Source: Gloeobacter violaceus PCC 7421 (lineage in GTDB: Bacteria > Cyanobacteriota > Cyanobacteriia > Gloeobacterales > Gloeobacteraceae). From it: DNA of 64,000 nt. The notes under the pieces are model-generated. The model saw nothing but the letters and a program-made list of their open reading frames with translations, was not told the origin of the DNA and did no database searches. Of this stretch, positions 6,046 through 30,447 are shown piece after piece. Numbering within the stretch: position 1 is the first letter of the stretch; every line of letters starts with the position of its first letter. A program made the translations under genes and the position numbers. The DNA lies in the NCBI RefSeq assembly GCF_000011385.1, contig NC_005125.1, forward strand, positions 992,001-1,056,000, written 5' to 3'.

Positions 6046-6994
6046 CCTGCCGTCCCCCCGGCAGGAGCCAGGCGATGCCGCCCAATAGAGCGGCGACGGT
6101 GTAGACGGCGAACCACAGCGCTCCAAAACCAAGGGCCTGCTCCGCAGGCACCCCCGCCATGCCCAACAGCAACACATACCCCCCTTCGCGCACCCCCAGG
6201 CCGTTGATACTCACCGGTGCCAGCGTCGCCAGGGTCGTGAGGCCGTAGGCGGTCATCAAAGCCGCCGCCGGTACATCCATCGGCAGTGCCAGGGCAATCG
6301 CCACCAGCACCCCCCAATTGATGAGCTGGATGGCGAGGCTGCTGGTGCCGATGCGCGCCAGATTGCCGGGGGTGCGCAGTCGCCCCTCCCAATCGGCAAC
6401 CGCGCCCAGGGCAGGGGCGAATTTGAAGGGCTTCCCGGCCAGGCGGCGGCTCAGCGGACCCAACAGCGCCCAGGCGGCGAACACTGCCGCGCCCAAGGCC
6501 CACAGCCAGGGCTTGAGGCGGTCGTAGGTACCGAGGGTGGCGCAGGCGGCACTCGCCAGCCCCAACAGAAACATCATGCCGCTGTAGCGGTCGGCAAGCA
6601 CCGTGTAGGCGACCGCCCAGCCGCGCTTTTCGCGCCCGAGCAGCACCGCCCGACCAACATCGCCCCCGAGGCTGCCCGGCAAAAATACCGCCAGAAACAA
6701 CCCCATAAAGTAGACCTGCACATAGCGGCGGCGGGTAAACGGCAGAGCCAGAGCCTCCCCCAGCCAGTTCCACTTCAGGGCGTTGAGCGCCTGACCCGCC
6801 AGAAACCCGACCACCGCCACCGCCAACCAGAGGGGATCCGTGCCCGCCAGCACCGCGGCCACCTTGCGCCCATCGACGAAAAAAAGCAAAACCGCCAGCA
6901 GCGACAGACTGGCCACCACCTTCAAAACCGTTTTGGTCACAGGACCGACGCGCAGGCGCGCACCTACGCCGGGTATCCGCAGGGACGGGAGCAT
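6032..6994 (-). CDS. Lysylphosphatidylglycerol synthase/flippase-type membrane protein (UPF0104)
   Basis: The product has about 320 residues and roughly eight hydrophobic segments from the first (KVVASLSLLAVLLFF) to the last (FAVYTVAALLGGIAWLLPGG). The middle contains FLAVFLPGSLGGDVGRAVLL and the end SINGLGVREGGYVLLL, both hallmarks of the LPG_synthase_TM family (PF03706). Stand-alone members lack the aminoacyl-transferase domain and are usually described as putative flippases or glycan/lipid-export partners in the inner membrane. The start is placed at MLPSLRIPGV; the open frame to 7063 adds a non-hydrophobic, Cys/Arg-rich stretch. Confidence 0.88.
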   Translation of the reverse strand: MLPSLRIPGVGARLRVGPVTKTVLKVVASLSLLAVLLFFVDGRKVAAVLAGTDPLWLAVAVVGFLAGQALNALKWNWLGEALALPFTRRRYVQVYFMGLFLAVFLPGSLGGDVGRAVLLGREKRGWAVAYTVLADRYSGMMFLLGLASAACATLGTYDRLKPWLWALGAAVFAAWALLGPLSRRLAGKPFKFAPALGAVADWEGRLRTPGNLARIGTSSLAIQLINWGVLVAIALALPMDVPAAALMTAYGLTTLATLAPVSINGLGVREGGYVLLLGMAGVPAEQALGFGALWFAVYTVAALLGGIAWLLPGGRQVKAG

Positions 6995-7183
6995 AAAAAC
7001 GATTCTACAGGAAGGGCAGGCCTGCTCCGCCCACAAACGCCCTGCGGCCCGCCGCCCGGGCAAAAAACGTCGTTTATGCTACCAGATGTCGGCACGGCGG
7101 GGCGACTTTGGACCGGTCTTCAGATTTAACAATTCGTAACACTAGTTGGGTGCTTTCCCCACTTTCGCGCCGCTCCTCCACAA

Positions 7184-7240
7184 GTTTTCCACAGGCTTGC
7201 GACGTAGATGGTGTCCCTCAGGACACTACCTGTGGAAAAC
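7184..7240. repeat. 12-bp inverted repeat containing two DnaA-box-like sequences
   Basis: GTTTTCCACAGG (7184-7195) is repeated inverted as CCTGTGGAAAAC (7229-7240). Between them a second hairpin GTGTCC-ctca-GGACAC (7211-7226) is nested. Each arm contains TTTTCCACA, the cyanobacterial form of the DnaA box. The repeat sits in the 423-bp gap 6995-7417, which also holds a GC hairpin (7241-7261) and a promoter-like site but no gene. Confidence 0.7.
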
Positions 7241-7261
7241 CGCCGCCGCCGAGGGGCGGCG
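7241..7261. terminator. GC-rich hairpin, possible terminator
   Basis: CGCCGCC (7241-7247) pairs with GGCGGCG (7255-7261) around a 7-nt loop, followed by CTATTATTA. The A/T tail is poor for an intrinsic terminator; it may instead extend the neighbouring inverted repeat. Confidence 0.35.
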
Positions 7262-7356
7262 CTATTATTAAGCTAGGTGTACGGGATCGGGAAATATAAC
7301 CGATCGAATTATGTCGTCTGGACAAATGCTTCGTTGTACTCGACAGTTTCGGGCGA

Positions 7357-7386
7357 TTGACAGTCCGCCTCCACCGACAAACAATA
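7357..7386 (+). promoter_or_regulatory. Candidate promoter of the DUF2811 gene
   Basis: A perfect TTGACA (7357-7362) is followed after 18 bp by ACAATA (7381-7386), 32 bp before the ATG at 7418. No clear Shine-Dalgarno sequence precedes that ATG. Confidence 0.4.
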
Positions 7387-7417
7387 GGTTCAACTTGATC
7401 AACACGAGTTCAAACCG

Positions 7418-7618
7418 ATGAAAACAATGGTCAGCGTTCTGGCTGAGATTCCCGAAGAATTGCATGATACGCTTCAAGTCTATCTGGACAACCATCCCGA
7501 CTGGGATCAAAACCGTATCTTCACCGCCGCCCTCTCTTTGTTTTTGCTGCAAAATGGCAATGGAGACCGGCGCGCCGCCCGCACCTATCTCAATACCCTG
7601 TTTCAGAAGACTTCATAA
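7418..7618 (+). CDS. DUF2811 small cyanobacterial protein
   Basis: The product has 66 residues. Phrases VSVLAEIPEELHDTLQVYL, DWDQNRIF and ALSLFLLQNG are the conserved body of DUF2811, a family known from cyanobacteria. It has no signal peptide or membrane segment and is predicted helical. Function is unknown. It stands alone between the DnaA-box-like repeat and hemY; the 234 bp to hemY show no other gene. Confidence 0.85.
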   Translation: MKTMVSVLAEIPEELHDTLQVYLDNHPDWDQNRIFTAALSLFLLQNGNGDRRAARTYLNTLFQKTS

Positions 7619-7852
7619 TCTTGGCGATTCGCGCTTGCCTGCTCGGGCCAACCGATAATAAGTGTAGCTATGTTTGCGGTAACCCATTGCTGAGCATCGG
7701 CCTTTCTATTTGTCAGTTTCGACCTCACTTTATGCGCGATTATTCTGTTGCGTCGGCAATGTTTCGTCGCGGAACATTGCCCGCGGCAGCGCACGGGGAG
7801 ATCCCGGGGAAGGGCGGTCGTGTCATAGTTGGCAAAGAGACTGATTCGGGCA

Positions 7853-9253
7853 ATGAACACGGCCGAGGAATTGCTGGATGTACTGGTGGTGGGCGCTGGC
7901 CTGAGCGGGCTGGCGCTCGCCTGGAAACTCAAGCGGGCCGGCTGCACGTTCTTGGTCTGTCAGGCGGGCGAGCGGGTGGGCGGAGCGATCACCACCGCGA
8001 TCGCCGACGGTTTTGTATGCGAGGGGGGTCCGAACAGTTTTCAAGAATCCCCACCCCTCATCGAGCTGTTGACCCAGTTGCAACTCGAAGATCAAATCGT
8101 CACCGCCGATCCGCGCCTGGCGCGCTTTGTTTGGTGGGAGAACCGCCTGCGCTCGGTGCCGCTCACCCCGGCGCAGCTGGTGCGCTCCGACTTACTCAGT
8201 TGGTCCGGTAAAGCCCGGCTGCTGTGGGAGTTGTTCGTCCCGGCCCTAGGCGAGCCCCGCGAGGAGACGGTGGCCGAATTTGTCCTGCGCCGCTTCGGCG
8301 AAGAAGTCCTCTCGCGGCTGGTCGATCCGCTGGTTTCGGGGATGTGCGCGGGCGATGTCGGCCAGTTGAGCATCGAAGCCACCTTCGAGCGGCTGGTCGA
8401 TCTGGAGCGCCGCCACGGCGGGGTGCTGCGGGGTTTGTGGCGGACTGCCCGCACCCGCCCACCCTTCAAGCGCCTCTGCACGTTGCGCGGCGGCCTGGAG
8501 CAGTTGCCCCAGGCACTCGCCCAGCGCCTGCAGCCGCAAATCCTGCTTTCCCACCGCCTCGAGGCGCTTGAACACCTGGCCGGGGATCGCTGGCGGGCGG
8601 TGGTGGCCGGTCCGCAGGGCGAGCCGGTGGCAATTGCGGCGCGCACGGTGATTCTGTCGGGTTCCGCCCACGCCATGGCTTCGGTCTTGCGTCCCCTGGA
8701 CGCCGGTCTCGGACGCGCCCTTGAAAGCATTTACTACCCACCGGTCGTGAGCATCAGTCTCGCCTACTCCAAAAGCCAGGTGCCCAACGCGCCGGAGGGC
8801 TTCGGGCATTTGATTCCCCGCAACCAGACCCTGCGCAGTCTCGGGGTGATCTGGAACAGCAGCCTCTTTCCCCATACCGCCCCACCCAACTGGCGGCTCT
8901 ATACCTGTTTTGTGGGCGGCACCACCGATCCGGCCACCCCCAACCTCAGCGACACCGAACTGGCCAGCCTCGCCCACCGCGAACTGCAGACGGTCCTCGG
9001 TTTCCAGGCGGGCTATCAACTGCTGCGCGTGACGCGCTGGCCCCAGGCCATCCCCCAGTACGCCCTCGGCCATCCCAGCAAGCAGGAGCGGGTCGAACGG
9101 GCGCTGTTGGGACTGCCGGGGTTGTTCCTGGTCGGCAATTACTTCGGCGGCATCTCCCTGGGAGATTGCGTGCGCCATTCCGGTGCGGTCGCCTCCCGCG
9201 TACTGCAGTTTTTAACCACGGTGGCCAGCAACGGCAGCCTGCGCCCGGCCTGA
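7853..9253 (+). CDS. hemY: Oxygen-dependent protoporphyrinogen oxidase
   Basis: FAD enzyme of about 466 residues oxidising protoporphyrinogen IX to protoporphyrin IX, the last shared step of heme and chlorophyll synthesis. The dinucleotide-binding motif DVLVVGAGLSGLALAWKL is at the N-terminus, followed by GGAITTAIADGFVCEGGPNS, the PPOX-type substrate/FAD region. The C-terminus carries GLFLVGNYFGGISLGDCV, the second FAD contact. Many cyanobacteria use HemJ instead, so HemY is informative about lineage. The start is at MNTAEELLDVLVVG; an earlier in-frame ATG at 7829 would add eight residues. Chorismate lyase follows 19 bp downstream on the same strand, suggesting an operon for pigment and quinone biosynthesis. 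Confidence 0.93.
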   Translation: MNTAEELLDVLVVGAGLSGLALAWKLKRAGCTFLVCQAGERVGGAITTAIADGFVCEGGPNSFQESPPLIELLTQLQLEDQIVTADPRLARFVWWENRLRSVPLTPAQLVRSDLLSWSGKARLLWELFVPALGEPREETVAEFVLRRFGEEVLSRLVDPLVSGMCAGDVGQLSIEATFERLVDLERRHGGVLRGLWRTARTRPPFKRLCTLRGGLEQLPQALAQRLQPQILLSHRLEALEHLAGDRWRAVVAGPQGEPVAIAARTVILSGSAHAMASVLRPLDAGLGRALESIYYPPVVSISLAYSKSQVPNAPEGFGHLIPRNQTLRSLGVIWNSSLFPHTAPPNWRLYTCFVGGTTDPATPNLSDTELASLAHRELQTVLGFQAGYQLLRVTRWPQAIPQYALGHPSKQERVERALLGLPGLFLVGNYFGGISLGDCVRHSGAVASRVLQFLTTVASNGSLRPA

Positions 9254-9272
9254 GCCCGGATAGACTGAATAG

Positions 9273-9809
9273 ATGAAGCAATATTGCGAAGTCGGGCCGC
9301 TGGCGGACTGGTGGCCTGGGGAGCGCGCCGAAGCGATCGCCCTGGGTGCCCTGTCGCCGGTACAGCGGCTGCTGATGGTCACCGACGGGACGGTGACCGA
9401 GTTGTTGGCGGCTTACTTTCTGGAGCCCATCGCCGTGCGCAAGCTCGGGCCGCTGGTGATGCGGGATTTGGGCGAGCGGGTCTACGAGCGCGAGGTGCTG
9501 CTGACGGGCCGCATCAGCGGGCAAGCTTACGTGCATGCCCAGTCGACTATCCTCATCGACCGGCTCACAGCCGATCTGCGCGAGGGACTGCTTGCCACCG
9601 ACAAAGGGATCGGCGAGTTGCTGCGCGAGGAGCTCACCGAGACTTACCGCGAGTTGAGCGGCTACTGGCACGAGGCGGCGGGCGGCCGGGCCGCTTACTT
9701 CGGCACCGATCCTGAAGCGCCGCTGCTCGGGCGCAGTTATGTGGTGCGCTGCAACCAGATACCCACCATGCGGATCACGGAGCGCTTTTGGGCAGCGGCC
9801 TTCGCCTAG
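9273..9809 (+). CDS. Chorismate lyase family protein (plastoquinone head-group synthesis)
   Basis: The product has 178 residues. The core LSPVQRLLMVTDGTVTELL and the conserved Arg/Glu pattern in ERVYEREVLLTG match the cyanobacterial chorismate-pyruvate lyase family (DUF98, distant UbiC relatives). These make 4-hydroxybenzoate for plastoquinone. The C-terminus RSYVVRCNQIPTMRITERFW is also typical. The gene is directly downstream of hemY. Confidence 0.88.
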   Translation: MKQYCEVGPLADWWPGERAEAIALGALSPVQRLLMVTDGTVTELLAAYFLEPIAVRKLGPLVMRDLGERVYEREVLLTGRISGQAYVHAQSTILIDRLTADLREGLLATDKGIGELLREELTETYRELSGYWHEAAGGRAAYFGTDPEAPLLGRSYVVRCNQIPTMRITERFWAAAFA

Positions 9810-9857
9810 GACGGCGGTATGGTAGTATCTCCCTGTTGAAATTAAATAGACAAGTCC

Positions 9858-10490
9858 ATGAAGCAACACCCAGGGCCACACGAAGCAATGATCGCCGCCG
9901 GGCTGACGCCCGATGAGGCCCTGGAGCGTTTGTTGGCAGGCAATTGCCGCTTTGTGGCGGCCAAATTGGAGAATCCCCACCGCACGGCTGCCTACGTGCG
10001 CTCGATTGCCCACAGCCAGCATCCCTTCGCCGTCTTGGTCGGTTGCGCCGATTCGCGCGTCGCACCGGAGATCTTGTTCGATCAGGGATTGGGAGATCTG
10101 TTTGTCAACCGGGTGGCGGGCAATTGCGTGAGCGACGACATCCTCGGCAGCATCGAGTACGCCGTCGAGCACCTGGGTTGCTCGCTGGTGCTGGTGCTTG
10201 GCCACGAGCGCTGCGGGGCGATCCAGGCGGCGATCGCAGCGGCCACCGCTGGGGCGACCTTTAACGGCTATGTGCGCCACTTCATCGAGGCGATCCGCCC
10301 GGCGGTGGAAATGTGCCGGGCGCAAGCGGGCGATCTGGACGAAAACGCACTGCGGGCCAATGTGCTGCGCAATGTCGAGAAAATCAAGACGGCCTCCGAT
10401 ATCATCCACTCCAAGCTCCTGAGCGGTGAAGTCAAGGTGTTGGGGGGGCGCTACGACCTCGATGACGGTGTTGTGACGCTTTTGGGCTGA
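9858..10490 (+). CDS. Beta-class carbonic anhydrase
   Basis: 210 residues catalysing CO2/HCO3- interconversion with a zinc. Ligands and catalytic residues are visible: C63, D65 and R67 in VGCADSRVAP, and H116 and C119 in LGHERCG. The intervening FVNRVAGNC is a beta-CA hallmark. There is no signal peptide, so it is cytosolic. It lacks the extensions of carboxysomal CcaA or CsoSCA. The last 40 bp overlap the 3' end of the convergent SGNH-type gene. Confidence 0.95.
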   Translation: MKQHPGPHEAMIAAGLTPDEALERLLAGNCRFVAAKLENPHRTAAYVRSIAHSQHPFAVLVGCADSRVAPEILFDQGLGDLFVNRVAGNCVSDDILGSIEYAVEHLGCSLVLVLGHERCGAIQAAIAAATAGATFNGYVRHFIEAIRPAVEMCRAQAGDLDENALRANVLRNVEKIKTASDIIHSKLLSGEVKVLGGRYDLDDGVVTLLG

Positions 10491-11560
10491 TCTTGCAACT
10501 GGAGTTTGCGGTGTTGGGCGCGCAGCTGCACCAGGCGCGCTGCGAGGTTTTGGGAAGTCAGCAGCACTCCAAAATCGGCGGGTAGGCCGGTGGGATTGGG
10601 ATCGAGCACCCGGCGCAGGACCATGTCGCCCACCGGCTTCAAAAAGTGCACCGGGTCGCCGAAGTTGCGCCCATCGGCGGTCACCGAATTGACGCCCGCG
10701 AAATCCCAGACCCGGCCGCCGACGCGCACCGTCTCGGCAAGCCAGCTCAGGTAGGCGTCGATGTCGTAGGAACGAAATTTTTCGAGGCTGAAAGGCGGTA
10801 CGACCAGCACCCGCGCGACTCCCGCCGCATCGAGCAAAGCGACGCTGCGCCCGTATTCCTCCAGGCCGCTCGCCGCAACCGGTCGGGGGGGCTTGCGGTT
10901 CGAGCGGGCGATATCCAGGGCAAGGGCACCCGCACTGACCGCATACAGCCGCTCAGGGTCGAACGGCCGCCCGATGGGGTAGAGCGCCTGCGGGCCGTTG
11001 TCGTTGCCGCGGTCCCAGGTCTCAAAACCGTAGGCTTTGCGGCTGTCGAGATTCTCCGCGACGAACAGCGCGATAATTCGCGGCTGGAAGAGCAGGTATT
11101 TGCCGTAGAAGCCCAGGGCCGAATCGCCGCTCACCAGCGGATGATCCTGGCGCAACAAATCGAGGGGATCGGTGGGCACCGACTGGATGTCGAAGTCGAG
11201 GCCGATGAGCGCTTTTTGGATCCGTTTTTGGCGGATGAGCCACTCCAGTTTGCGGCGGATTCCGAAGCCGTTCTCCAGGCTCACCCCGAAGTTAAAGAAG
11301 CGATAGCGCTCGCCGCTGGCGCGATCGGCGGCAGCGGCGGCATAGTACATGGTGCGCGAGGAGCCGAAAATATACGCGTCGAAGCGCGGCTGGGTCAGCA
11401 GGTACTCGACTTTAAGGTAGCGGGTGTTCGGCTCAAAGTTTTTCTTGGTAAAGCGCACGACCCCAAACACGTCGTAGGGATCCACGGCGATCGCCACCAC
11501 CAGTTGCACGACACTCAACAGGACGACCGTCAGAAGCAAAACGCGGCTGTAGTTTCCCAT
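10451..11560 (-). CDS. SGNH/DltD-like partner protein of an MBOAT acyltransferase
   Basis: The 369-residue product has one N-terminal membrane segment (VLLLTVVLLSVVQLVVAIAV) and an extracytoplasmic domain. YIFGSSRTMYYA resembles the GxS nucleophile block of SGNH hydrolases, and DPVHFLKPVGDMVL resembles the catalytic D-x-x-H block near the C-terminus. The gene starts 3 bp after the MBOAT gene ends, so the two are surely co-transcribed. Such pairs (AlgI with AlgX/J, DltB/DltD, PatA/B) move an acyl group across the membrane and onto a cell-surface polymer; the role here is inferred from that arrangement. Confidence 0.75.
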   Translation of the reverse strand: MGNYSRVLLLTVVLLSVVQLVVAIAVDPYDVFGVVRFTKKNFEPNTRYLKVEYLLTQPRFDAYIFGSSRTMYYAAAAADRASGERYRFFNFGVSLENGFGIRRKLEWLIRQKRIQKALIGLDFDIQSVPTDPLDLLRQDHPLVSGDSALGFYGKYLLFQPRIIALFVAENLDSRKAYGFETWDRGNDNGPQALYPIGRPFDPERLYAVSAGALALDIARSNRKPPRPVAASGLEEYGRSVALLDAAGVARVLVVPPFSLEKFRSYDIDAYLSWLAETVRVGGRVWDFAGVNSVTADGRNFGDPVHFLKPVGDMVLRRVLDPNPTGLPADFGVLLTSQNLAARLVQLRAQHRKLQLQDQPKSVTTPSSRS

Positions 11561-20959: not shown

Positions 20960-22135
20960 CTAGTGCACCGCCGCTCCGACGAAGCGATCCGGCCGGTAGG
21001 GCTTGAGCAGGTCCGGACAGCGGCCGGTGGCAATCTCCTCGGCGAGCAACCGGCCCAGAAGCGGTGCCAGGGTGATACCACTGTGGGTGACCACGCCGTA
21101 AACGCCCGGGGCACTGGCAAGCGGCCCGACGATCGGAAAGCCGTCGGCGGGCACTGGCCGCACGCCCACGCCAATCTTCGAGCGCGCCGTTAGACCGGGA
21201 TCGTCCAGGGCTTTGAGGTGCCGGGCAGCCGAGTGCAACAATTCGGCGGCCTGAGCCTGAGGCTCCTCGCCCGGCGGCAAGTCTCCCAGCCGCTCGTCGA
21301 TGCCGTCGGCTCCCAGCATCACTCCCCCCGCGAGTGTGGGCCGCAGGTGCAGCCCGCTGCCGTCGAGGGGTTCCACCAGACGCTCGATAAGCCCGATCGC
21401 CGAGCCGGGCGGGGTTTGGACCAACAGCCCCGGCACCCGCCGCACCGCGAAGCGCTCGCCGTCGATCGGATCGCGGGCGGCCATACGCACCAGCGCCGGC
21501 AGGTGAATGCCGCCTGTCAGCACCGCTATCGCAGTGGCGATTTCGCCTTGGGGGGTGACCACAGCAGCCAGATGCCCGGCGTCCTCGAACCGAAAAGCAA
21601 CAGCAGGACAGCGCTCCCGGATCTCTCCACCCAGCGAACGCACCCGCCCGGCAAAAAAGCCGGCGAGTACCGGCGCTTCTACCCACCGATCCGCCGGGGC
21701 GAATAGACCCAGGGCCGCGGAAGGAAAGCGTACCTGCGGTTCGAGCAGCCGCAGGGTGTCGAGTTCGAGCAATTCTGCCGGGTAGTCCCACTGCTGCAGC
21801 CGGCGGATCTGATCGTACAGGCTGTCGACCGCGTTGGAGTCGTCCCCGTTCACCCAGGCGAGATAGCCGCCCCCGCCCATCCCCAACGCCTCGCACCCCC
21901 AGCGCGCCTCCAGTTCTATGTATATCTCCATCCCCCGGGCGTTGAGACGGTGATAGGTCCAGTCGGTGGTCTTGGAAGTGGCGTTGAGCCAGCCGAAGGT
22001 GCAACCGGTCGCCCCGGCGCTCAGCGACTTTTCCTCCAACAGCACCACTTTGAAGCGGCGCTCGGCCAGCGCCCAGGCGACGGCCACCCCCAGGATGCCG
22101 CCACCCACGATCACTACGTCTGCCAATGGTTTCAT
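20960..22135 (-). CDS. FAD-dependent amine/amino-acid oxidase (DAO family)
   Basis: 391 residues. The FAD motif DVVIVGGGILGVAVAWALAE is at the N-terminus; the C-terminus has GFPIVGPLASAPGVYGVVTH and HSGITLAPLLGRLLAEEI, the usual DAO closing motifs. Relatives include glycine/sarcosine oxidase, D-amino-acid dehydrogenase and ThiO. The gene starts 44 bp after the Rieske oxygenase gene on the same strand, at the tail of the guanidine-riboswitch cluster. I infer a role in oxidising the N-alkyl or amino-acid part of a substrate; it could equally be unrelated. Confidence 0.85.
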   Translation of the reverse strand: MKPLADVVIVGGGILGVAVAWALAERRFKVVLLEEKSLSAGATGCTFGWLNATSKTTDWTYHRLNARGMEIYIELEARWGCEALGMGGGGYLAWVNGDDSNAVDSLYDQIRRLQQWDYPAELLELDTLRLLEPQVRFPSAALGLFAPADRWVEAPVLAGFFAGRVRSLGGEIRERCPAVAFRFEDAGHLAAVVTPQGEIATAIAVLTGGIHLPALVRMAARDPIDGERFAVRRVPGLLVQTPPGSAIGLIERLVEPLDGSGLHLRPTLAGGVMLGADGIDERLGDLPPGEEPQAQAAELLHSAARHLKALDDPGLTARSKIGVGVRPVPADGFPIVGPLASAPGVYGVVTHSGITLAPLLGRLLAEEIATGRCPDLLKPYRPDRFVGAAVH

Positions 22136-22179
22136 TGCGGACTCACTCCTCACTAAAAGTCGATGCGGACGGGTGCCAC

Positions 22180-23253
22180 CTAGCCCAGGTAAGCGCGGAC
22201 GGTGTTGTAGAAGTGGCTGATCCCCAGTTCGTGCTCCTCGGCCAGGTGGGAAATCTGGTAGGCGCGGGAGCGCACGCCCTCCTGCAAGAGCGTGCACACG
22301 TCGGTGTCCTCCTGGCCCACTTTGCTCGGTCCGGCTTCGCCGATGTAGGGCTCGGCAGCGTGCTGGGCAGGCGTCTGGTAGATGAACGCCTCGAAGCGGG
22401 TGACGGTCGGATTCACCGGGATGTAGCGCGAGAAGAAGACCGTGTGGGCGGAGGTGCCGTAGGTGATGTTCGGGAAGATGAAACCCTGGTAGGAGACGCC
22501 CCCCGCCTCCCAGCGGCGGCGCTGGGGGTCTTTGGGTGGACAATTGGGCGCGTAGGGAACGGGGATGTTGATGTGGCGGCCGGCGGGAATCGTGCCGATG
22601 CGTTGCACGTCGTAGAGGGGAGTGAGCGTCTCGGCGTGGACGGTGGCGAAGTGGTAGTCTTCGACAAAGTTTTCGATCTGAAACTTCCAGTTGATCGGCT
22701 CCTCGCGGGTGAAGTGGGCGATCTGGCGCAGATCCTCCCATCTTTGGCCGTACTGGTTCAGATAATCGGGCACTCCCGCCAGGTATTCGGCGAGACACTC
22801 ACCCTCCGGGTCGGGGTTGACGAACACGAAACCGCCCCAACTGTCCACCTGCGCCCCGGCAAGCCGCACGGCCGATTTGTCCAGCTCCGGAAACCAACCC
22901 GGCTGGGCCACCGCGAGCAATTTGCCGCTCAGATCGAACGTCCAGGCGTGGTAGGGGCACTGCAGGAACTTGCAGCTGCCTTGCTTTTGGGGGAGCAGCC
23001 GCGCCCCCCGGTGCGGGCAGACGTTGTGCATCGCCAGAAGTTCGCCGTCGCCCCCCCGCACCACGAAGATCGGTTCTTCGCCCAGGACCGTCGCCAGATA
23101 GTCGCCGGGGTTTGTCAAGTCTTCGAGGCGGCCCACCCACTGCCAGGTGGAGCGCCAGATGGTCTGCAGCTCGCGCCGGTAAACGTCGAGATCGGTGTAA
23201 TAGTTTCCGGGCAGTTCGTAAGTCCTTGGGCGGGGCGGTTGGATGGCGGTCAT
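22180..23253 (-). CDS. Rieske non-heme iron oxygenase alpha subunit
   Basis: 357 residues. The Rieske 2Fe-2S ligands are C79-x-H81 (VCPHRGARL) and C99-x-x-H102 (QCPYHAW). The mononuclear iron region is WKFQIENFVEDYHFATVH. The layout resembles the choline/glycine-betaine monooxygenase-like group that performs N-demethylations as well as ring hydroxylation. No reductase gene is adjacent. The ATG at 23253 has AGAGGAAAA ahead. It lies 57 bp downstream of the carboxylase gene on the same strand, so it is probably in the riboswitch operon. Confidence 0.9.
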   Translation of the reverse strand: MTAIQPPRPRTYELPGNYYTDLDVYRRELQTIWRSTWQWVGRLEDLTNPGDYLATVLGEEPIFVVRGGDGELLAMHNVCPHRGARLLPQKQGSCKFLQCPYHAWTFDLSGKLLAVAQPGWFPELDKSAVRLAGAQVDSWGGFVFVNPDPEGECLAEYLAGVPDYLNQYGQRWEDLRQIAHFTREEPINWKFQIENFVEDYHFATVHAETLTPLYDVQRIGTIPAGRHINIPVPYAPNCPPKDPQRRRWEAGGVSYQGFIFPNITYGTSAHTVFFSRYIPVNPTVTRFEAFIYQTPAQHAAEPYIGEAGPSKVGQEDTDVCTLLQEGVRSRAYQISHLAEEHELGISHFYNTVRAYLG

Positions 23254-23310
23254 CGGTTTTTCCTCTGTAGAAGTGGAGTATAGAAAATACAAATTTTGGA
23301 TGTCCGGGTG

Positions 23311-26300
23311 CTATGGCGGCGCGGACTCGGAAGGTTGCACGACCACAAGCGTCTGGCCGGCGGCGACCAGACACCCTTCGGCGCACAGCACCGCGAGGAC
23401 TGTACCGGAGATGGGAGCGGTCAGGACAACCTCCATCTTCATCGACTCCAAGATCACCAGGGGATCACCGGCGGCGACCGGCTCTCCCGGTTGGACGGCA
23501 ATCTGCCAGACATTCGCCGAGAGCTGGGCGCTCACCGCGCAGGCTCCGGCGGGCAGTGCGTACTCCTCGGCCGCAGACGGCGCAATAGCCGGATCTTCGG
23601 CGACGGCGGCAAATTCGCCCGCCTCGCGCCACCGCTCGCGCTCCTCGGCAAAGGCCGTCTGCTGCTGCGCTTTAAAGGCTGCGGCCTCCGGGGCGATCTC
23701 GGCTAAAAAGTCGTTGTATTGTTTCAGGCTGAAGATCGCTTCGCTCACCTCGAGCTTCGCGCGGCCGTGGCGAAAATCCTCGCGCAGGCGCAACAGTTCC
23801 GGCCCGGAAACCGGATAGAAGCGGATCTGATCAAAAAAGCGCAGCAGCCAGGGCCGGGTAAAATCGGCGGTCTGCCGGTAGCGGTTCCAGACCTGGACGG
23901 TACGGCCCACGAACTGGTAGCCCCCCGGTCCCTCCATGCCGTAGATGCAGAGATACGCGCCGCCGATGCCCACGGCGTTTTCGGGTGTCCAGGTGCGCGC
24001 CGGGTTGTACTTGGTGGTGACCAGCCGGTGGCGCGGATCGATTGGGGTAGCGACGGGCGCTCCAAGGTAGACATCGCCCAGGCCCAATACCAGGTAGCTC
24101 GCCTCGAAGACGATGCGCTTCACCTCGTCAATACTTTCAAGCCCGTTGATGCGGCGGATAAATTCGATGTTGCTCGGACACCAGGGAGCGTCCTTGCGCA
24201 CCGACTGCATGTACTTGCGGATGGCGAGCAGCGTCGATTCGTCTTCCCAGGACAAAGGCAGGTGCAGGATACGGGTGGGCACCTCCATCGCCTCGATCGG
24301 GGGCAGTTGCGACTCTGCGGCGGTCAGAACCTCCAGCAACCTTTCGCGCGGCAGGATGCGGCCGTCGAAGTGCACCTGCAGCGAGCGGATGCCGGGGGTG
24401 AGTTCGAGCATGCCCGGCAAGGCGTTGGCCTGCAGCCACTCCATCAGCGCGTGCACCCGGAAGCGCAAATTGAGATCGAGCACCGGCGGGCCGTACTCGA
24501 TAAGCAGGTACTTGTCCCCCGACTGGCGGTAGACGACGGCGATTTGCTCCGCAGTGGCCGCGATGGTGTGCAGCACCGCCGGGTCGCCGGCTTCGGCAAG
24601 CGAGGGCGCAGCCGGTTTCGGAAGGGAGAGTCGATCGATTGTGAAATCTTGTGCTTGTTCGCGGCGCAGGGCTTCGGCAAAACCCAGCCGCCGGAAGCGG
24701 ACGGTGTCTCCCGGTTTGAGTTGGCCGATTTTCCACAGTTCCGCCCGGGCGACAGTAGCCGGGCAGACGAAGCCTCCCAGGCTCGGGCCGTCGGGACCGA
24801 GGATGACTGGCATGTCGCCGGTGAAATCGACCGTGCCCACCGCATAGGCATTGTCATGAATATTCGACGGGTGCAATCCCGCTTCGCCGCCGTCGGAGCG
24901 CGCCCATAGCGGTTTGGGACCGATGAGCCGCACGCCGGTGCGCGCTGAGTTGTAGTGAACTTCCCAAGCGGTGGCAAAAAATGTCTCGATGTCCCGGTCG
25001 GTAAAAAAGTCCGGCGCTCCGTGGGGACCGTAGAGTACACCAATTTCCCAATCGGAGCGGTATTCGGGGATGAGAGCGGGAGCGAGCGGCAGCGGGAGGT
25101 CTGCAAGATCATGCCGCACCAGCCGGAGCACATCGCCGGTGCGCAGCGTCCGACCGCAGTGGCCGCCGAATTGTCCCAGGGTAAAAGTCGCCTTGCTGTC
25201 CAGATACTCGGGCACGTCGAAACCACCCCGGACCGCCAGGTAGGTGCGGTAGCCGGGGCCGGTGACGGCCCCCAGGCGCAGGGTGCTGCCTGCCGCCACC
25301 GGCACGGCGCACCAGTAGGAAACGGGTTTGCTGTCGATCCGGGCGTCCATCGCGGCACCGCACAGGCAGATCACCGCGTCGGTGTGGAAACGCAAGGTCG
25401 GGCCGAGGGCAGTGCATTCGAGCCCGGCCGTCTCGGGGGGGTTGCCCACCAGGCGGTTGGCAAGGCGGAAGGCGAGCGGGTCCATCGGGCCGGAGGGCGG
25501 CACGCCGATATCCCAGTAGCCGGTGCGCCCCGGGTAGTCCTGGATGGTGCTGTAGGTACCGGGCTCCAGCACCTCGACGGTCAGCGGCGCGTAGTGAAAA
25601 GTTTGCGAGAAGCGGGTACTCAGGTTGCCCGCCAAAAAATCGGCGTCCGCAAGGATCTGGCGCAGGTAGTCCAGGTTGGTCTCCACCCCGGCGATGCGGG
25701 TGTCCGCAAGCGCGGCCTGCAGACGGGCGATCGCCTCGGGTCGCGATTCACCCCGGACGATGAGCTTGGCGAGCAAGGGGTCGTAGTAGGGCGTCACCTC
25801 CGTGCCCCGCTCCACCCAGCCGTCGCAGCGCACCGCCGCAAAGACCGCTTCGGTGAGCGTGCCGGTGCTGGGCTGAAAATTGCGGCCCGCATCCTCGGCG
25901 TAGAGCCGCACCTCGACGGCATGCCCCCGGGGCCGGTGGCGGTACTGCTCGAGAAAGTCGCGCTCCCCGGCCGCCAGGCGCACCATCCATTCGACCAGGT
26001 CGATCCCCGCCACCGCCTCGGTGACGCCGTGCTCCACCTGCAGACGGGTGTTCACCTCCAGAAAATAAAAATCCGCCGCCTCGGCGTCGTAGATAAATTC
26101 CACCGTCCCCGCCGAGCGATAGCCGACCGCCCGCCCCAGGCACACCGCCGCTTCACAAAGCCGTTCGCGCAGCGTCTCGCAAATACCGGGGGCCGGGGTC
26201 TCCTCAAGCAGCTTCTGGTTGCGCCGCTGGATCGAGCAGTCGCGCTCGCCCAGGGCGATCACCCTACCCTCGCCGTCGCCGAAGATCTGCACCTCCAGGT

Positions 26301-26919
26301 GCCGGGCGCGCTCGACGTATTTTTCGAGGTACACGCCGCCGTCGCGGAAATTGTTTTCGCTGAGCCGCTGCACGGCCTGGAACGATTCGGTGAGTTTCGC
26401 TTCTCCCCGACAGAGTGCCAGGCCGATCCCGCCCCCACCCGCCGTGCTCTTGAGCATCACCGGGTAGCCAATCGCCGCCGCCTGCCGGTGCGCTTCGGCA
26501 AGATCGATGAGCAAGCCCGTCCCCGGCAACAGGGGCACACCGTTTTCGGCCGCCAGAGCGCGGGCGGTGTGCTTGCGCCCGAAGCGACCCATCTGCAAGG
26601 GGGTAGGTCCAATAAAGACAATATTCTCGCGTTCGCACGCCTCGGCAAATTCGGCGTTCTCGCTCAAAAAACCGTAGCCCGGGTGGATCGCCTGGGCACC
26701 GGTGGCGACGGCCGCTTCTAAAATCCGCTCGTAGCGCAAATAGCTCTGGGCCGCCGGGGCGGGGCCAATCAGGACCGCTTCACCCGCTCCCCGGACGTGG
26801 GGGGCGTAGGCGTCCGCCTCGGAGTACACCGCCACCGAGGCGATCCCCAGCCGGTCGAGGGTGCGCAGGATGCGGCAGGCGATTTCGCCCCGGTTGGCAA
26901 TCAAGACTTTGTCGAACAT
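23311..26919 (-). CDS. Urea/guanidine carboxylase (biotin-dependent)
   Basis: 1202 residues. The biotin carboxylase half (about 1-450) begins [18 protein letters not shown], with [15 protein letters not shown] and the ATP-grasp loop [11 protein letters not shown]. A carboxyltransferase of KipA type follows (about 455-790, [18 protein letters not shown]), then KipI type (about 830-1060, [20 protein letters not shown]). The biotinyl domain at the C-terminus has ESMKMEV with biotin-Lys1161. The architecture is that of urea carboxylase (EC 6.3.4.6). The upstream guanidine-I riboswitch and the two DUF1989 genes indicate that the real substrate is guanidine, giving carboxyguanidine. An alignment at the known urea/guanidine specificity residue would confirm it. 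Confidence 0.95.
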   Translation of the reverse strand: [1202 protein letters not shown]

Positions 26920-26946
26920 GCGAACGTCGTCGTCGGGTAGGTAAGT

Positions 26947-27606
26947 TTAGCGGCAGGGGTCAGGCGGGGGCGGAGCCCAGATGACCAGCCGGATGGGGGT
27001 CGGATTGTAGCCGTTGCAGGGGTTGTTCATCTGGGGACAGTTGGAGATCACCACCAGCGCGTTCATCTCGGCGCGCAGATCGACCGTGCTGCCGGGTTCG
27101 GAGATGCCGTCCACGATTTCGAGTGTGCCGTCGCGGCTCACCGGCACGTTCATAAAAAAGTTGATGTTGCTCACCAGGTCGCGTTTGCCCATACCGTAGC
27201 GGCTGAGGGCCGCGAGGAAATTTTCGACACAGGCGTGCTGATATTTTTTGTCCAGCCCGAAGCGCACCGAGTTGCTCTCGCAGCTGCAGGCGCCGCCGGA
27301 GGTGTCGTGGCGGCCGACACTATCGCCCACGATCGTCATCAGCACCCCGCCGTCGTTGGAATAGAGGCGGCTGCCGGTGGTGAGGAAGATGTTCCCCTGT
27401 AGGCGGATCGTGTCGGGGGCGCTGTAGCGCTCCGAGTAATCGTCGGCGTTGTAGACCAAAAAATCGACCGCCTGGTTGCCCCCCAGATCGACGATGCGCA
27501 GAACCTGCCCCCGCTCGACGACGTGGGACCAGGGCCTGCGCGCCGCGAGCACCTCGTCGTAGACTACCCGTTGGGAATCGATCCCCTGCAAAGCTGTCGC
27601 TACCAT
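26947..27606 (-). CDS. DUF1989 protein, urea-amidolyase-associated protein 2 / carboxyguanidine deiminase subunit
   Basis: 219 residues. DUF1989 hallmarks include LRIVDLGGNQAVDFLVYNADD, the Cys-rich metal site SGGACSCESNS, and GSTVDLRAEMNALVVISNCP. Two paralogous DUF1989 proteins next to a urea-carboxylase-type gene were long called urea-amidolyase-associated proteins; in characterised systems they form a carboxyguanidine deiminase giving allophanate and ammonia. The ATG at 27606 has AAAGGAGG at ideal spacing; a TTG two codons earlier is less likely. It lies 12 bp after its paralogue and 27 bp before the carboxylase. Confidence 0.92.
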   Translation of the reverse strand: MVATALQGIDSQRVVYDEVLAARRPWSHVVERGQVLRIVDLGGNQAVDFLVYNADDYSERYSAPDTIRLQGNIFLTTGSRLYSNDGGVLMTIVGDSVGRHDTSGGACSCESNSVRFGLDKKYQHACVENFLAALSRYGMGKRDLVSNINFFMNVPVSRDGTLEIVDGISEPGSTVDLRAEMNALVVISNCPQMNNPCNGYNPTPIRLVIWAPPPPDPCR

Positions 27607-27618
27607 GACCAACCTCCT

Positions 27619-28335
27619 TTAGACAAACAGCGCGTCGGTATTCTCAAAGCCGCGAACCGCCTCGGGGCAGCCCGTGCGGCACGGATCGCCCGAGGTGGGA
27701 GGGGGCGAGTTCCAGACCACCACCCGGACGGGCGTCGGCTGGTATGTCGGGCTCGGGTGCAGGACGTGGGGCGTGTTCGAGATCACCACCAATACGTTCA
27801 TCTCGGCGCGCAGATCGACGGTGCTGCCCGCTTTGGAACGCTCCTGGAAAGTCAGCCCGCCGTCCTCCTCCACCGCCACCCGCGCAAACAGGTTGAGGTT
27901 GGGCATGATGTCCTTTTTGCCCAGGTCGTGTTTGGCAAGCGCGTTGATAAAATTCGAGCGCGTATCGCGCCAGTCGCCCTCGCCGTACTTCTGGGTGCTG
28001 CCGGCCGGATTGCTCGCTCCGCCCAGGGTGTCGAAGGCGCCGCCGGTCGTCTCGCCGGTGATCGAAAAGAGCACCCGCCCCATGTCGGAGTAGAGCACCT
28101 TGCCGACTCCCAGAAAGATGCCGAACTGGATCTTGACCGTGTCGGCCGCGTTATAGCGCTCGATCGGATTGTCGGCGTTGTAGCACAACAGCGAAACCCC
28201 CTGCCCACCTTCGAGATCGACAATCCGCAGCGTGGCGCCCCGCTTGATCTTCCGCGACCAGTAGGCGCCCCCGGGCACGGTCTCCGCCCAGGTGATCAGT
28301 CCCGGGTCGATCCCATCGTCCGCCGTCACCACCAT
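27619..28335 (-). CDS. DUF1989 protein, urea-amidolyase-associated protein 1 / carboxyguanidine deiminase subunit
   Basis: 238 residues, the first gene after the riboswitch. The pattern is the same as its paralogue: LRIVDLEGGQGVSLLCYNADN, FDTLGGASNPAGST and AGSTVDLRAEMNVLVVISNTP. The metal-site cysteines of the paralogue are replaced here (GGASNPAGS), as expected if only one subunit of a heteromer is catalytic (inference). The ATG at 28335 follows a strong AAGGAGGAG Shine-Dalgarno that the riboswitch expression platform could mask. Confidence 0.92.
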   Translation of the reverse strand: MVVTADDGIDPGLITWAETVPGGAYWSRKIKRGATLRIVDLEGGQGVSLLCYNADNPIERYNAADTVKIQFGIFLGVGKVLYSDMGRVLFSITGETTGGAFDTLGGASNPAGSTQKYGEGDWRDTRSNFINALAKHDLGKKDIMPNLNLFARVAVEEDGGLTFQERSKAGSTVDLRAEMNVLVVISNTPHVLHPSPTYQPTPVRVVVWNSPPPTSGDPCRTGCPEAVRGFENTDALFV

Positions 28336-28338
28336 CGG

Positions 28339-28399
28339 TTACTCCTCCTTATGAACCACAAAGCCCAGGAGACTCCGGCAGCAAAGCTTGCTGCGGTGC
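28339..28399 (-). promoter_or_regulatory. Riboswitch expression platform
   Basis: Read on the minus strand, the aptamer's terminal CCCGGGAG can pair with a downstream CTCCTGGG. A perfect hairpin GCAGCAA/TTGCTGC (plus-strand 28378-28394) lies between. The CTCCT segment is also complementary to the AGGAG of the ribosome-binding site. There is no T-run, so control of translation is more likely than termination. The pairing scheme is inferred by eye. Confidence 0.5.
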
Positions 28400-28503
28400 T
28401 CTCCCGGGCTTTTCTCCCGCCGTGTGACCGGCCCTGCTGTCGGACCGGCTGCTTCTCTCGGACCAGCCGTCCCACCACAGGAGCGGGACCGGAACCCTAG
28501 AAG
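28400..28503 (-). promoter_or_regulatory. Guanidine-I (ykkC) riboswitch aptamer
   Basis: The reverse complement contains all conserved blocks of the ykkC class in order: CTAGGGTTCCG (5' side, plus-strand 28490-28500), CTGGTCCGAGAGAAGC in the middle, and ACACGGCGGGA followed by AAAAGCCCGGGAGA (3' side). Spacing matches the B. subtilis ykkC RNA. This class binds free guanidinium and switches on guanidine export or degradation genes. It lies 65 nt upstream of the first DUF1989 gene, so it should control that gene and those behind it. Confidence 0.95.
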
Positions 28504-28620
28504 CCAGTTTTTACTGGACACTCTTATCAGGAGCACAGGCCGGGCGGTGTATCGGCGGCTACGCTTGCCGATGGGTCCGGCCGGGCAAGATAGGCTGCAC
28601 TTGCGTTTGGAAAGTTGCCG

Positions 28621-30447
28621 ATGCCTTCGCCGTCCTGGAGTCTTGACCTGCGGGCGCTGGCGGCGCGCTACCGGTCGGGGGAGGCCACGCCCGCAGGGGT
28701 GGTGGCCGAGGTCTACGAGCGCATTTCCCGCTACGCGGATCCGGCCGTCTGGATTCACCTGCTGCCGATGGAGCGGGTGCTGGAGGGAGCCCACACCCTG
28801 GCAGGCCGCGACCCGGCGGGCCTGCCGCTCTACGGGGTACCTTTTGCCGTCAAGGACAACCTCGATCTGGCCGGGGTGCCCACCACCGCCGGCTGTCCCG
28901 GTTTCGCCTACGGGCCTGAAAAGACGGCTCCGGTCGTCGAGCGGTTGATGGCCGCCGGGGCGATCCCGGTCGGCAAGACCAACCTCGATCAGTTCGCCAC
29001 CGGTCTGGTGGGCACCCGCACGCCCTACGGCGTCTGCCGCAACCCGTTCGACCGCCGCTACCTGCCCGGCGGTTCCAGTGCGGGTTCGGCGGTGGCGGTG
29101 GCGGCGGGGCTGGTGAGCTTTGCCCTGGGCACCGACACCGCCGGGTCGGGGCGGGTTCCGGCCGCCTTTACCAACACCGTCGGGCTCAAGCCCACCCGGG
29201 GTCTTTTGAGTACCCGCGGTCTGGTGCCGGCGGTGCGCAGCCTCGATTGCGTGTCGATCTTCGCCCTGACTTGCGAAGATGCCGGGGCGGTGTTGTCGGT
29301 GGCGGCGGGCTTCGACCCGGACGATCCGTTTTCGCGCCGGGCGCCCGCTGTCGAGACTCCGTCTTTTGACCGCCTGCGCGTCGGCGTGCCCGAGACCGAC
29401 TATCTCGAATTTTTCGGCGACCGCGCGGCGCAGGGTCGCTACCGCGCGGCCCTCGCTCGACTGGAAGCCCTGGGCTGCGAACTGATCACCATCGATTTCG
29501 GGCCGTTTGCCGACACTGCCCGGATGCTTTACGGCGGGCCGTGGGTGGCCGAACGCCTCGCGGCGGTGGGCGATTTTCTGGAGCGCGAACCGGAATCCGT
29601 CCATCCGGTGGTGTACGAGATCATCGCGGGCGGGGCGCGCTACGACGCGGTGAGCGCCTACAAAGCCGCTTACCGGCTTGCCGGGTTGCGCCGCCTGAGC
29701 GAAGGGCAGTGGCAGCAGATGGACGTCCTGGCCCTTCCTACCACCGGCACGATCTATACCGTCGCCGAGGTGGAGCGCGATCCCATCGCCCTCAACGCCA
29801 ACCTGGGCCTCTACACCAACTTCGTCAACCTGCTGGATCTGTGTGCGCTCGCCGTTCCGAGCGGCCCCGGCAAAGCCGGTCTGCCCACGGGGATCACCTT
29901 CGTCGCCCCCGCCTGGCAAGAAACCCTGCTCTGTCGGCTGGGGGGTGTCTTCCATCCCTGGCCGGGGGCGACACTCGGCGCAACCGGCCACCCGGTGCCC
30001 GTCCCCGAACCGATGGCAGACCCAGCGGATCGCGGGATCCAGCTCGCGGTGGTAGGCGCCCACCTGAGCGGCCAGCCCCTCAATCACCAACTCACCGATC
30101 TGGGCGGTGCGCTGGTGCGCGCCTGCCGGACGGCTGCGCACTATCGGCTGTTTGCCCTCGTGGGTGAAAAAGTTCCGAAGCCCGGGTTGGTGCGCACCGA
30201 CGACGGCAACGGTGCGGCTATCGAACTGGAAGTCTGGAAGCTTTCCGCCGAAGGGTTCGGCCGTTTCGTGGCCAATATCCCGCCGCCACTTGGGATCGGC
30301 ACGCTGCTGCTTGAAGACGGGGAACAGGTGAAGGGTTTTCTGTGCGAAAGCTACGCCGTGGCAGGTGCGCCGGACATTACCGGCTTCGGCGGTTGGCGGG
30401 CCTATCTGGCCGCCAATGGCTCTTCAGCCGGGATCGCGCACGGGTAA
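28621..30447 (+). CDS. atzF: Allophanate hydrolase
   Basis: 608 residues. Amidase-signature enzyme converting allophanate to 2 NH3 and 2 CO2, the final step after urea or guanidine carboxylation. Catalytic triad: Lys78 (FAVKDN), cis-Ser152 (PGGSSAGSA) and nucleophile Ser176 (GTDTAGSGR). A C-terminal allophanate-hydrolase domain (about 460-605) ends with DITGFGGWRAYLA. It is divergent from the riboswitch operon, with 118 bp between aptamer start and this ATG, so it needs its own promoter. ATG 28621 is chosen over a TTG at 28615. The 3' end overlaps a doubtful minus-strand frame. Confidence 0.95.
   Translation: MPSPSWSLDLRALAARYRSGEATPAGVVAEVYERISRYADPAVWIHLLPMERVLEGAHTLAGRDPAGLPLYGVPFAVKDNLDLAGVPTTAGCPGFAYGPEKTAPVVERLMAAGAIPVGKTNLDQFATGLVGTRTPYGVCRNPFDRRYLPGGSSAGSAVAVAAGLVSFALGTDTAGSGRVPAAFTNTVGLKPTRGLLSTRGLVPAVRSLDCVSIFALTCEDAGAVLSVAAGFDPDDPFSRRAPAVETPSFDRLRVGVPETDYLEFFGDRAAQGRYRAALARLEALGCELITIDFGPFADTARMLYGGPWVAERLAAVGDFLEREPESVHPVVYEIIAGGARYDAVSAYKAAYRLAGLRRLSEGQWQQMDVLALPTTGTIYTVAEVERDPIALNANLGLYTNFVNLLDLCALAVPSGPGKAGLPTGITFVAPAWQETLLCRLGGVFHPWPGATLGATGHPVPVPEPMADPADRGIQLAVVGAHLSGQPLNHQLTDLGGALVRACRTAAHYRLFALVGEKVPKPGLVRTDDGNGAAIELEVWKLSAEGFGRFVANIPPPLGIGTLLLEDGEQVKGFLCESYAVAGAPDITGFGGWRAYLAANGSSAGIAHG

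Follow-up and report, generated by a model that had tools for sequence, protein, structure and literature searches.

What does an operon under a guanidine-sensing riboswitch degrade when its carboxylase is known as a urea carboxylase, and what are two oxidase genes doing at its end? This question is raised by a locus in a 64-kb stretch of the genome of Gloeobacter violaceus PCC 7421 (hereafter the window, meaning the whole stretch analysed). Gloeobacter is a very early-branching cyanobacterium. On the minus strand of the window, a guanidine-I (ykkC) riboswitch is followed in order by UAAP1, UAAP2, a carboxylase gene, a Rieske oxygenase gene and the gene of a DAO-family enzyme dependent on flavin adenine dinucleotide (FAD), and an allophanate hydrolase gene lies divergently to them. 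The initial annotation of positions 20960-30447 had named the aptamer, the two DUF1989 genes (UAAP1 and UAAP2), the carboxylase and the hydrolase, and all of these were found at the places it gave, but the same span also holds the Rieske and DAO-family genes, which it left unmentioned. The carboxylase part is an already known pathway; the two unnamed oxidase genes are the unusual and more interesting part of the operon. Our reading, to which we assign a probability of roughly 55%, is that guanidine is assimilated via the carboxylase and that the Rieske oxygenase and the FAD enzyme release guanidine from N-substituted guanidines.

Guanidine or urea as the carboxylase substrate

The carboxylase matches TIGR02712 over positions 1-1201 with 1870 bits (cut-off 1303.85). 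Guanidine carboxylases are recognised by Asp at the positions equivalent to 1330 and 1584 of the K. lactis enzyme (PMC11410670). In an alignment of the window protein to the K. lactis enzyme, N1330 fell opposite D698, and the conserved Asp of the GLGD motif (K. lactis 1584, counted by hand from the alignment) corresponded to D949; a second reading gave both residues again. Where a urea carboxylase has Asn at K. lactis 1330, the window protein has Asp. Judged by these residues, its assignment as a guanidine carboxylase rather than a urea carboxylase, which the initial annotation had proposed, is well supported.

We compared this protein to its counterparts in the phylum. Full-length carboxylases above the family cut-off were found in 10 of 386 genomes, the window genome included. 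Eight of the other nine carboxylases have Asp at both positions; the exception, L089, carries Asn at the specificity position. As it also lacks UAAP genes and shows no guanidine-I match over 19.5 kb, L089 resembles a genuine urea carboxylase and was used as the control. Guanidine-I lies inside the fetched stretch at seven of the nine loci; L091 has the Asp with neither UAAP genes nor guanidine-I in its stretch, and its genome carries guanidine-I elsewhere. The Gloeobacterales carboxylases of genomes G002 (72% identical) and G004 are both Asp/Asp, the locus of G004 (L163) having the riboswitch and the UAAP pair and that of G002 (L162) neither of them within about 8 kb. The view that cyanobacteria use the other, ureohydrolase-type route, which the initial annotation named as the one known from Synechocystis, is only partly true, given the ten genomes with a full-length carboxylase.

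A search for urease alpha gave no match in the window genome and three congeners, whereas two other cyanobacteria gave matches in that search; that G. violaceus lacks urease had been noted earlier (PMC6737895). A gdmH-type guanidinase query had no match in four Gloeobacter genomes, in a search that held no positive control; a related gdmH query, used on riboswitch loci, matches 49 of 60. The riboswitch, both Asp residues and the missing urease match agree with the carboxylase route that had been suggested for this locus.

The alternative that this is a urea amidolyase pathway, in which the carboxylase acts on urea as in the published annotation, draws on the name of the top family, TIGR02712, which is urea carboxylase, on the treatment of the genes in PMC6737895, and on the missing urease match, since urea use would then need another enzyme. 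Against it stand the UAAP pair, guanidine-I and the Asp in place of Asn at the specificity position. We rejected it on that residue, which is Asn in the control carboxylase L089, and regard it as very improbable, though the sequence is compatible with some side activity on urea.

The 2019 review PMC6737895 names the genes urea carboxylase, ucp1, ucp2 and allophanate hydrolase, lists gll0958, gll0959, gll0960 and glr0961 for this set in G. violaceus PCC 7421, and rests an evolutionary argument on the breakdown of urea. The gll0958 of that table would be the window carboxylase gene. The warning that a urea carboxylase label would mislead here was therefore apt, as the review uses urea names where the residues say guanidine. 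The carboxylase taken there as a reference for urea catabolism in cyanobacteria has the guanidine carboxylase signature, and because of this signature the argument that urea carboxylase preceded urease in cyanobacteria needs another look. Compared to the known gca/cgdA/B/atzF pathway, the Gloeobacter locus has the same four enzymes, the same riboswitch class and the same signature aspartates, but its hydrolase gene is divergent and outside the transcript, its operon has no ATP-binding cassette (ABC) transporter, and Rieske and DAO genes have been added.

Rieske genes at guanidine-I loci

The order of riboswitch, UAAP1, UAAP2, carboxylase, Rieske and DAO recurs in L015 (Aphanocapsa lilacina HA4352-LM1) and L079 (G003). 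The aptamer is kept in both (80.1 and 83.1 bits, respectively), and in L079 about 1.9 kb separates Rieske from DAO. At E 1e-45, the DAO protein was found in 3 of 242 genomes of the class, all of this genus.

To the phylum as a whole, guanidine-I contributes 129 places in 121 of the 386 genomes. We fetched 60 of these places, mostly from class Cyanobacteriia and three from family f46, with L146 and L135 running to a contig end. The gdmH gene was present in 49 loci and neither gdmH nor Rieske in 11, while a Rieske oxygenase gene was found in 14, all of them among the 49 with gdmH: 11 in family f4 (three genera) and 3 in f34 (one genus). In all 14 loci the Rieske gene lies on the riboswitch strand, 4.8-6.4 kb downstream, next after the transporter ATPase gene. 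L093 and L106 have the order arginase-family enzyme, HypA, HypB-like, substrate-binding protein, permease, ATPase and Rieske, and there the ATPase and Rieske genes overlap by four bases. A search with PF00848 found the Rieske gene to be the sole such gene in 13 of these 14 genomes, and G401 has one more. The chance of one randomly placed gene lying so is 0.10-0.18% per genome, the genomes being related and not 14 independent events. This recurrence supports the view that the Rieske enzyme serves guanidine metabolism.

We had considered the Rieske gene as the last gene of the operon in the 14 loci, and dropped this given the same-strand open reading frames that follow it in 12 of them (at least 100 residues, starting within 600 nucleotides behind the Rieske gene). 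One such frame, of 264 residues, begins 14 nucleotides behind the riboswitch-linked Rieske gene of L124 (about 7978 and below, minus strand).

The Rieske neighbourhood in the Synechococcus/Cyanobium group is already in print: a putative Rieske Fe-S protein, CK_00002251, lies downstream of the guanidinase cluster in most Synechococcus and Cyanobium genomes that have the cluster (PMC10119275), and its presence was taken there to reflect an iron requirement rather than an oxygenase. The f4 loci L092-L102 probably show this arrangement. Like the Gloeobacter operon, the published cluster has a Rieske protein beside a guanidine-I-controlled guanidine cluster; it differs by its nickel guanidinase, hypA, hypB and ABC transporter, and by a Rieske protein of another lineage. 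A literature search for guanidine, guanidinase or methylguanidine together with Rieske, from which subscription papers were mostly outside, did not find the oxygenase catalytic domain, the f34 and Gloeobacter cases or the link to substrate release; the Rieske mention in PMC12342949 concerns the cytochrome b complex.

We then placed these proteins in a tree of 60 rows, which omits L055, L004-L008 and L011 (copies under other locus ids) as well as L031 and L032 (short-contig, partial). The Gloeobacter operon copies nested with Gloeobacter paralogs and a cyanobacterial clade that neighbours DUF3865 genes, and the f4 and f34 Rieske proteins grouped together elsewhere (support 92/98; long branches flagged). 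A single shared clade of guanidine-linked Rieske proteins was rejected, the constraint costing 35.4 log-likelihood units (approximately unbiased test, p-AU = 0.0016) in a test whose group was defined by gene context, though the first tree had already been seen, and which omits four more rows (L033_7963, L012, L047 and L028). Because the riboswitch-linked Rieske proteins do not form one clade, the trees point to at least two recruitments to riboswitch loci, from two lineages.

The Gloeobacter operon copies and the paralogs of the same genus are 88% identical in the Rieske half (residues 40-135) and 51% in the catalytic half (231-345), and the paralogs compared to G002 are 74% and 81% identical, respectively. 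Along successive segments, DNA identity between the two copies is 81-92% in the first half and drops to 49-57% around residues 261-320. Relative-rate counts compared a single operon copy with a single paralog, each taken from the window genome. With G002 as the outgroup, private changes in the catalytic half number 38 for the operon copy and 5 for the paralog (p = 2.5e-7), and two other outgroups gave 28:10 and 28:9. Counts in the electron-transfer half (4:2, 4:3 and 5:4) revealed no asymmetry. Since the catalytic half alone is accelerated in the operon copy, a changed substrate is suggested. The simplest reading of these sequences is that both copies share an electron donor and have exchanged some sequence, and that the one in the operon may have been fitted to another substrate.

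Several observations weigh against a guanidine-releasing role of the two oxidases. Neither DAO nor a full Rieske oxygenase was found at E 1e-6 at the nine other cyanobacterial carboxylase loci (L088 has a partial, weak match of 27.7% to Rieske some kilobases off), nor at the two other Gloeobacterales carboxylase loci that we fetched. Rieske is also absent from 35 of the 49 gdmH loci, L103 and L147 from families f4 and f34 being among them, and 12 of the 14 loci that have it carry the following reading frames described above. The Gloeobacter and f4/f34 Rieske proteins are 22-28% identical and need not share a substrate, and close relatives of the Gloeobacter protein elsewhere adjoin a DUF3865 gene and no guanidine gene. 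Finally, no guanidino-binding signature residue was found, and the Gloeobacter operon holds no transporter gene. The locus might then be a plain guanidine carboxylase operon, with Rieske and DAO as co-transcribed passengers that have an unrelated task; the carboxylase pathway is complete without them, the pair is missing from all nine other cyanobacterial carboxylase loci, and the other members of the clade that holds the Gloeobacter Rieske protein adjoin DUF3865 genes. We consider this unlikely, if well worth keeping in view, as a Rieske gene of a separate lineage stands behind guanidine-I in 14 loci and is the sole PF00848 gene in 13 of the 14 genomes, as the pair stays with the riboswitch in three Gloeobacter-type genomes, once despite the 1.9-kb insertion, and as the divergence is restricted to the catalytic half.

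The cyanobacterial relatives have neighbourhoods of their own. In filamentous and other cyanobacteria (L020-L025, L027, L029 and L030), Rieske relatives 42-49% identical to the Gloeobacter protein lie directly behind the DUF3865 (haem-oxygenase-like) gene, with which they look like an oxygenase pair; in most cases a Cache/HAMP histidine kinase gene is close by. In L019 (Anabaena sp. UHCC 0187) and L026 (Dolichospermum sp. UHCC 0259), at about 6800-11040, the Rieske relative follows a very large open reading frame (2188 and 2487 residues, respectively), a PhyH-type gene and an EamA exporter gene, and L019 also has a radical SAM/SPASM gene; these loci have the look of a biosynthetic cluster.

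Identity and possible chemistry of the two oxidases

Residues C92, H94, C112, H115, H214, H219 and D329 of the Rieske protein do not vary among all 36 proteins aligned; with the Rieske and iron ligand roles assigned by alignment position, H214, H219 and D329 are the probable iron triad. Its best solved relative by sequence is the carnitine monooxygenase CntA (E 1.9e-38). CntA is also the best fold match of the predicted model (predicted local distance difference test score, pLDDT, 87.6), with E 2.5e-26, a template modelling (TM) score of 0.76 and 25-26% identity, and stachydrine demethylase is among the next matches. These nearest solved structures, CntA and stachydrine demethylase, are Rieske enzymes that oxidise C-N bonds. 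The window protein shares the domain build and the Rieske and iron ligands with CntA, GbcA and stachydrine demethylase, but its identity to CntA is only 25-26% in the structural match, and it scores 143 bits against the curated GbcA family NF058607 (cut-off 670). Profile scans of the operon, to which this search was confined, found no reductase gene for the Rieske oxygenase, such as adjoins in the two-component CntA and GbcA systems. A 2-oxoglutarate dioxygenase gene, as expected of an MgdH/MgdL system, is likewise missing from the operon, whose proteins match other Pfam families. For the DAO protein, the best solved relatives are glycine/D-amino-acid oxidase-like chains (top 7fgp, E 1.1e-35), and the score against the ThiO glycine oxidase family TIGR02352 is 85.7 bits (cut-off 250.8).

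A search by eye of the alignment for an active-site signature shared by the Gloeobacter and f4/f34 Rieske proteins found none. Three residues ahead of the first iron His, at the position that bridges the two metal sites in Rieske oxygenases, Gloeobacter has Glu, as does CntA, the f4 proteins have Asp and the three f34 proteins Cys.

In the scheme that we propose, guanidine would bind the riboswitch and turn expression of the operon on. The carboxylase would convert guanidine to carboxyguanidine using adenosine triphosphate, bicarbonate and biotin, loss of ammonia from carboxyguanidine through the UAAP1/UAAP2 pair would leave allophanate, and this would be split into ammonia and CO2 by the divergent hydrolase. 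Nickel is dispensable for the carboxylase route, and no nickel enzyme would be needed. The Rieske and FAD enzymes would oxidise the carbon beside a guanidino nitrogen, and the free guanidine formed would feed the carboxylase. The Rieske enzyme may act on methylguanidine and the FAD enzyme on a guanidino acid, creatine and guanidinoacetate being candidates; with creatine-type compounds, removal of the acid side chain could fall to the FAD enzyme and that of the methyl group to the Rieske enzyme. As the operon has no reductase gene, ferredoxin of the cell would probably supply the Rieske enzyme with electrons.

There are precedents for such additions. A methylguanidine hydroxylase and a lyase, which demethylate methylguanidine, are encoded within a guanidine carboxylase operon in Vreelandella boliviensis (PMC12508155). 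This mgdH/mgdL operon and that of Gloeobacter both stand behind guanidine-I, and in both an iron oxygenase gene extends the guanidine carboxylase set. In Vreelandella the oxygenase is a 2-oxoglutarate dioxygenase that works with the lyase, and the operon has an ABC transporter as well as an internal guanidine-II riboswitch, whereas Gloeobacter has a fold-unrelated Rieske enzyme and a FAD enzyme. N-(hydroxymethyl)guanidine is stable enough to require the lyase in Vreelandella (PMC12508155), and no lyase candidate was seen in the Gloeobacter operon unless DAO or chance decay substitutes for one, which argues against a plain copy of the Vreelandella scheme. DAO-family enzymes also widen aminoethylphosphonate operons to an N-methyl compound (PMC10590968); PbfB, PbfC and PbfD resemble the Gloeobacter case in that a DAO-family enzyme has been added to a catabolic operon, and belong to a different pathway.

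Alternatively, the Rieske and FAD enzymes could act on arginine-derived compounds (arginine, 4-guanidinobutyrate or homoarginine), in which case guanidine would arise within the cell and be reported by the riboswitch. CntA, the nearest solved Rieske protein, has structures with carnitine and with gamma-butyrobetaine, which 4-guanidinobutyrate resembles, and an oxygenase in a plant reportedly frees guanidine from homoarginine. The operon has no importer of its own, and an amino-acid ABC transporter gene adjoins the DAO relatives in the two plasmid records examined (of 216), which is the sole substrate clue for the FAD enzyme. However, nothing at the locus links the pair to arginine genes, and a guanidine-responsive switch would here raise guanidine formation further, which needs a reason. 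We hold this alternative to be rather improbable.

Returning to release from N-substituted guanidines, a wider version can be put forward at odds somewhat below even: cyanobacteria may have recruited Rieske enzymes twice as guanidine-releasing N-dealkylases, in the carboxylase route of Gloeobacter, together with a DAO-type enzyme, and in the nickel guanidinase route of f4 and f34. If true, the twofold recruitment would mean an enzyme activity not described before, and another chemical way of doing the task of MgdH, a 2-oxoglutarate enzyme. Where the guanidine in the environment originates has yet to be settled (PMC12186494), and guanidine-controlled oxygenases are good candidates for the enzymes that free it from larger molecules.

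Layout and riboswitches of the locus

The features of the locus are collected in Table 1. With the starts as chosen, the gaps from UAAP1 through DAO are 12, 27, 57 and 44 bases, and a purine-rich stretch resembling a Shine-Dalgarno sequence lies upstream of the starts of UAAP2, Rieske and DAO. The ATG chosen for UAAP2 is preceded by AAGGAGG, the mechanical open reading frame beginning at a TTG (27612); an alternative TTG start of the Rieske gene at 23292 would give 370 residues. The gene set from the riboswitch to DAO is probably transcribed as one unit, and the allophanate hydrolase gene, being divergent, falls outside the riboswitch transcript. A transfer RNA scan of the window found none.

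Table 1. Features of the guanidine locus, in window coordinates.
Feature	Position	Strand	Basis or remark
Guanidine-I (ykkC) riboswitch aptamer	28399..28511	-	RF00442, 83.0 bits vs gathering 63
Predicted hairpin, probable expression platform	28360..28412 (approximate)	-	RNA fold
UAAP1, DUF1989, putative carboxyguanidine deiminase subunit (Cgd)	27619..28335	-	PF09347 193 bits; TIGR03425 316.7 vs cut-off 205.95
UAAP2, DUF1989, putative carboxyguanidine deiminase subunit (Cgd)	26947..27606	-	PF09347 234.8 bits; TIGR03424 348.3 vs 284.7
Guanidine carboxylase, 1202 residues (elsewhere annotated urea carboxylase)	23311..26919	-	TIGR02712, D698 + D949, biotin motif MKM
Rieske non-haem iron oxygenase alpha subunit, CntA/GbcA-like	22180..23253 (ATG)	-	PF00355 + PF00848
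DAO-family FAD-dependent oxidoreductase, glycine/sarcosine oxidase-like	20960..22135	-	PF01266 177.5 bits
Allophanate hydrolase, amidase + AH_C domain (PF01425 + PF21986)	28615..30447	+	TIGR02713 784.5 vs cut-off 511.05 bits
F420-dependent NADP oxidoreductase family protein, 225 residues	20150-20827	opposite to DAO	next likely gene downstream of DAO

The guanidine-I aptamer that the initial annotation had predicted was recovered with the covariance model: in a cmscan of the whole window, RF00442 at 28511-28399 (minus) was the sole Rfam match at the gathering threshold, with E 2.7e-13 over model positions 1-107, the full length. The genome, a single contig of 4,659,019 bases, has no second RF00442 match. 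When 28336-28511 (minus) was folded, a long hairpin sequestered the 3' strand of the aptamer (z-score -2.67) just upstream of the Shine-Dalgarno sequence of the first gene. A switch between aptamer and hairpin is plausible from this fold, and could act on transcription, as a terminator, or on translation.

The same genome also has a guanidine-II riboswitch (G000:C1:3187335-3187382, or L082:9336-9383) ahead of an exporter-like open reading frame (L082:8996-9439, minus), which reads as a small multidrug resistance type when its sequence is judged by eye. From these sequences, Gloeobacter seems to export guanidine besides degrading it. One solved guanidine-II riboswitch comes from G. violaceus (PMC5486947). 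At another guanidine carboxylase locus, L083, two guanidine-I riboswitches (2151-2303 and 5683-5820) lie 3.4 kb apart on one strand.

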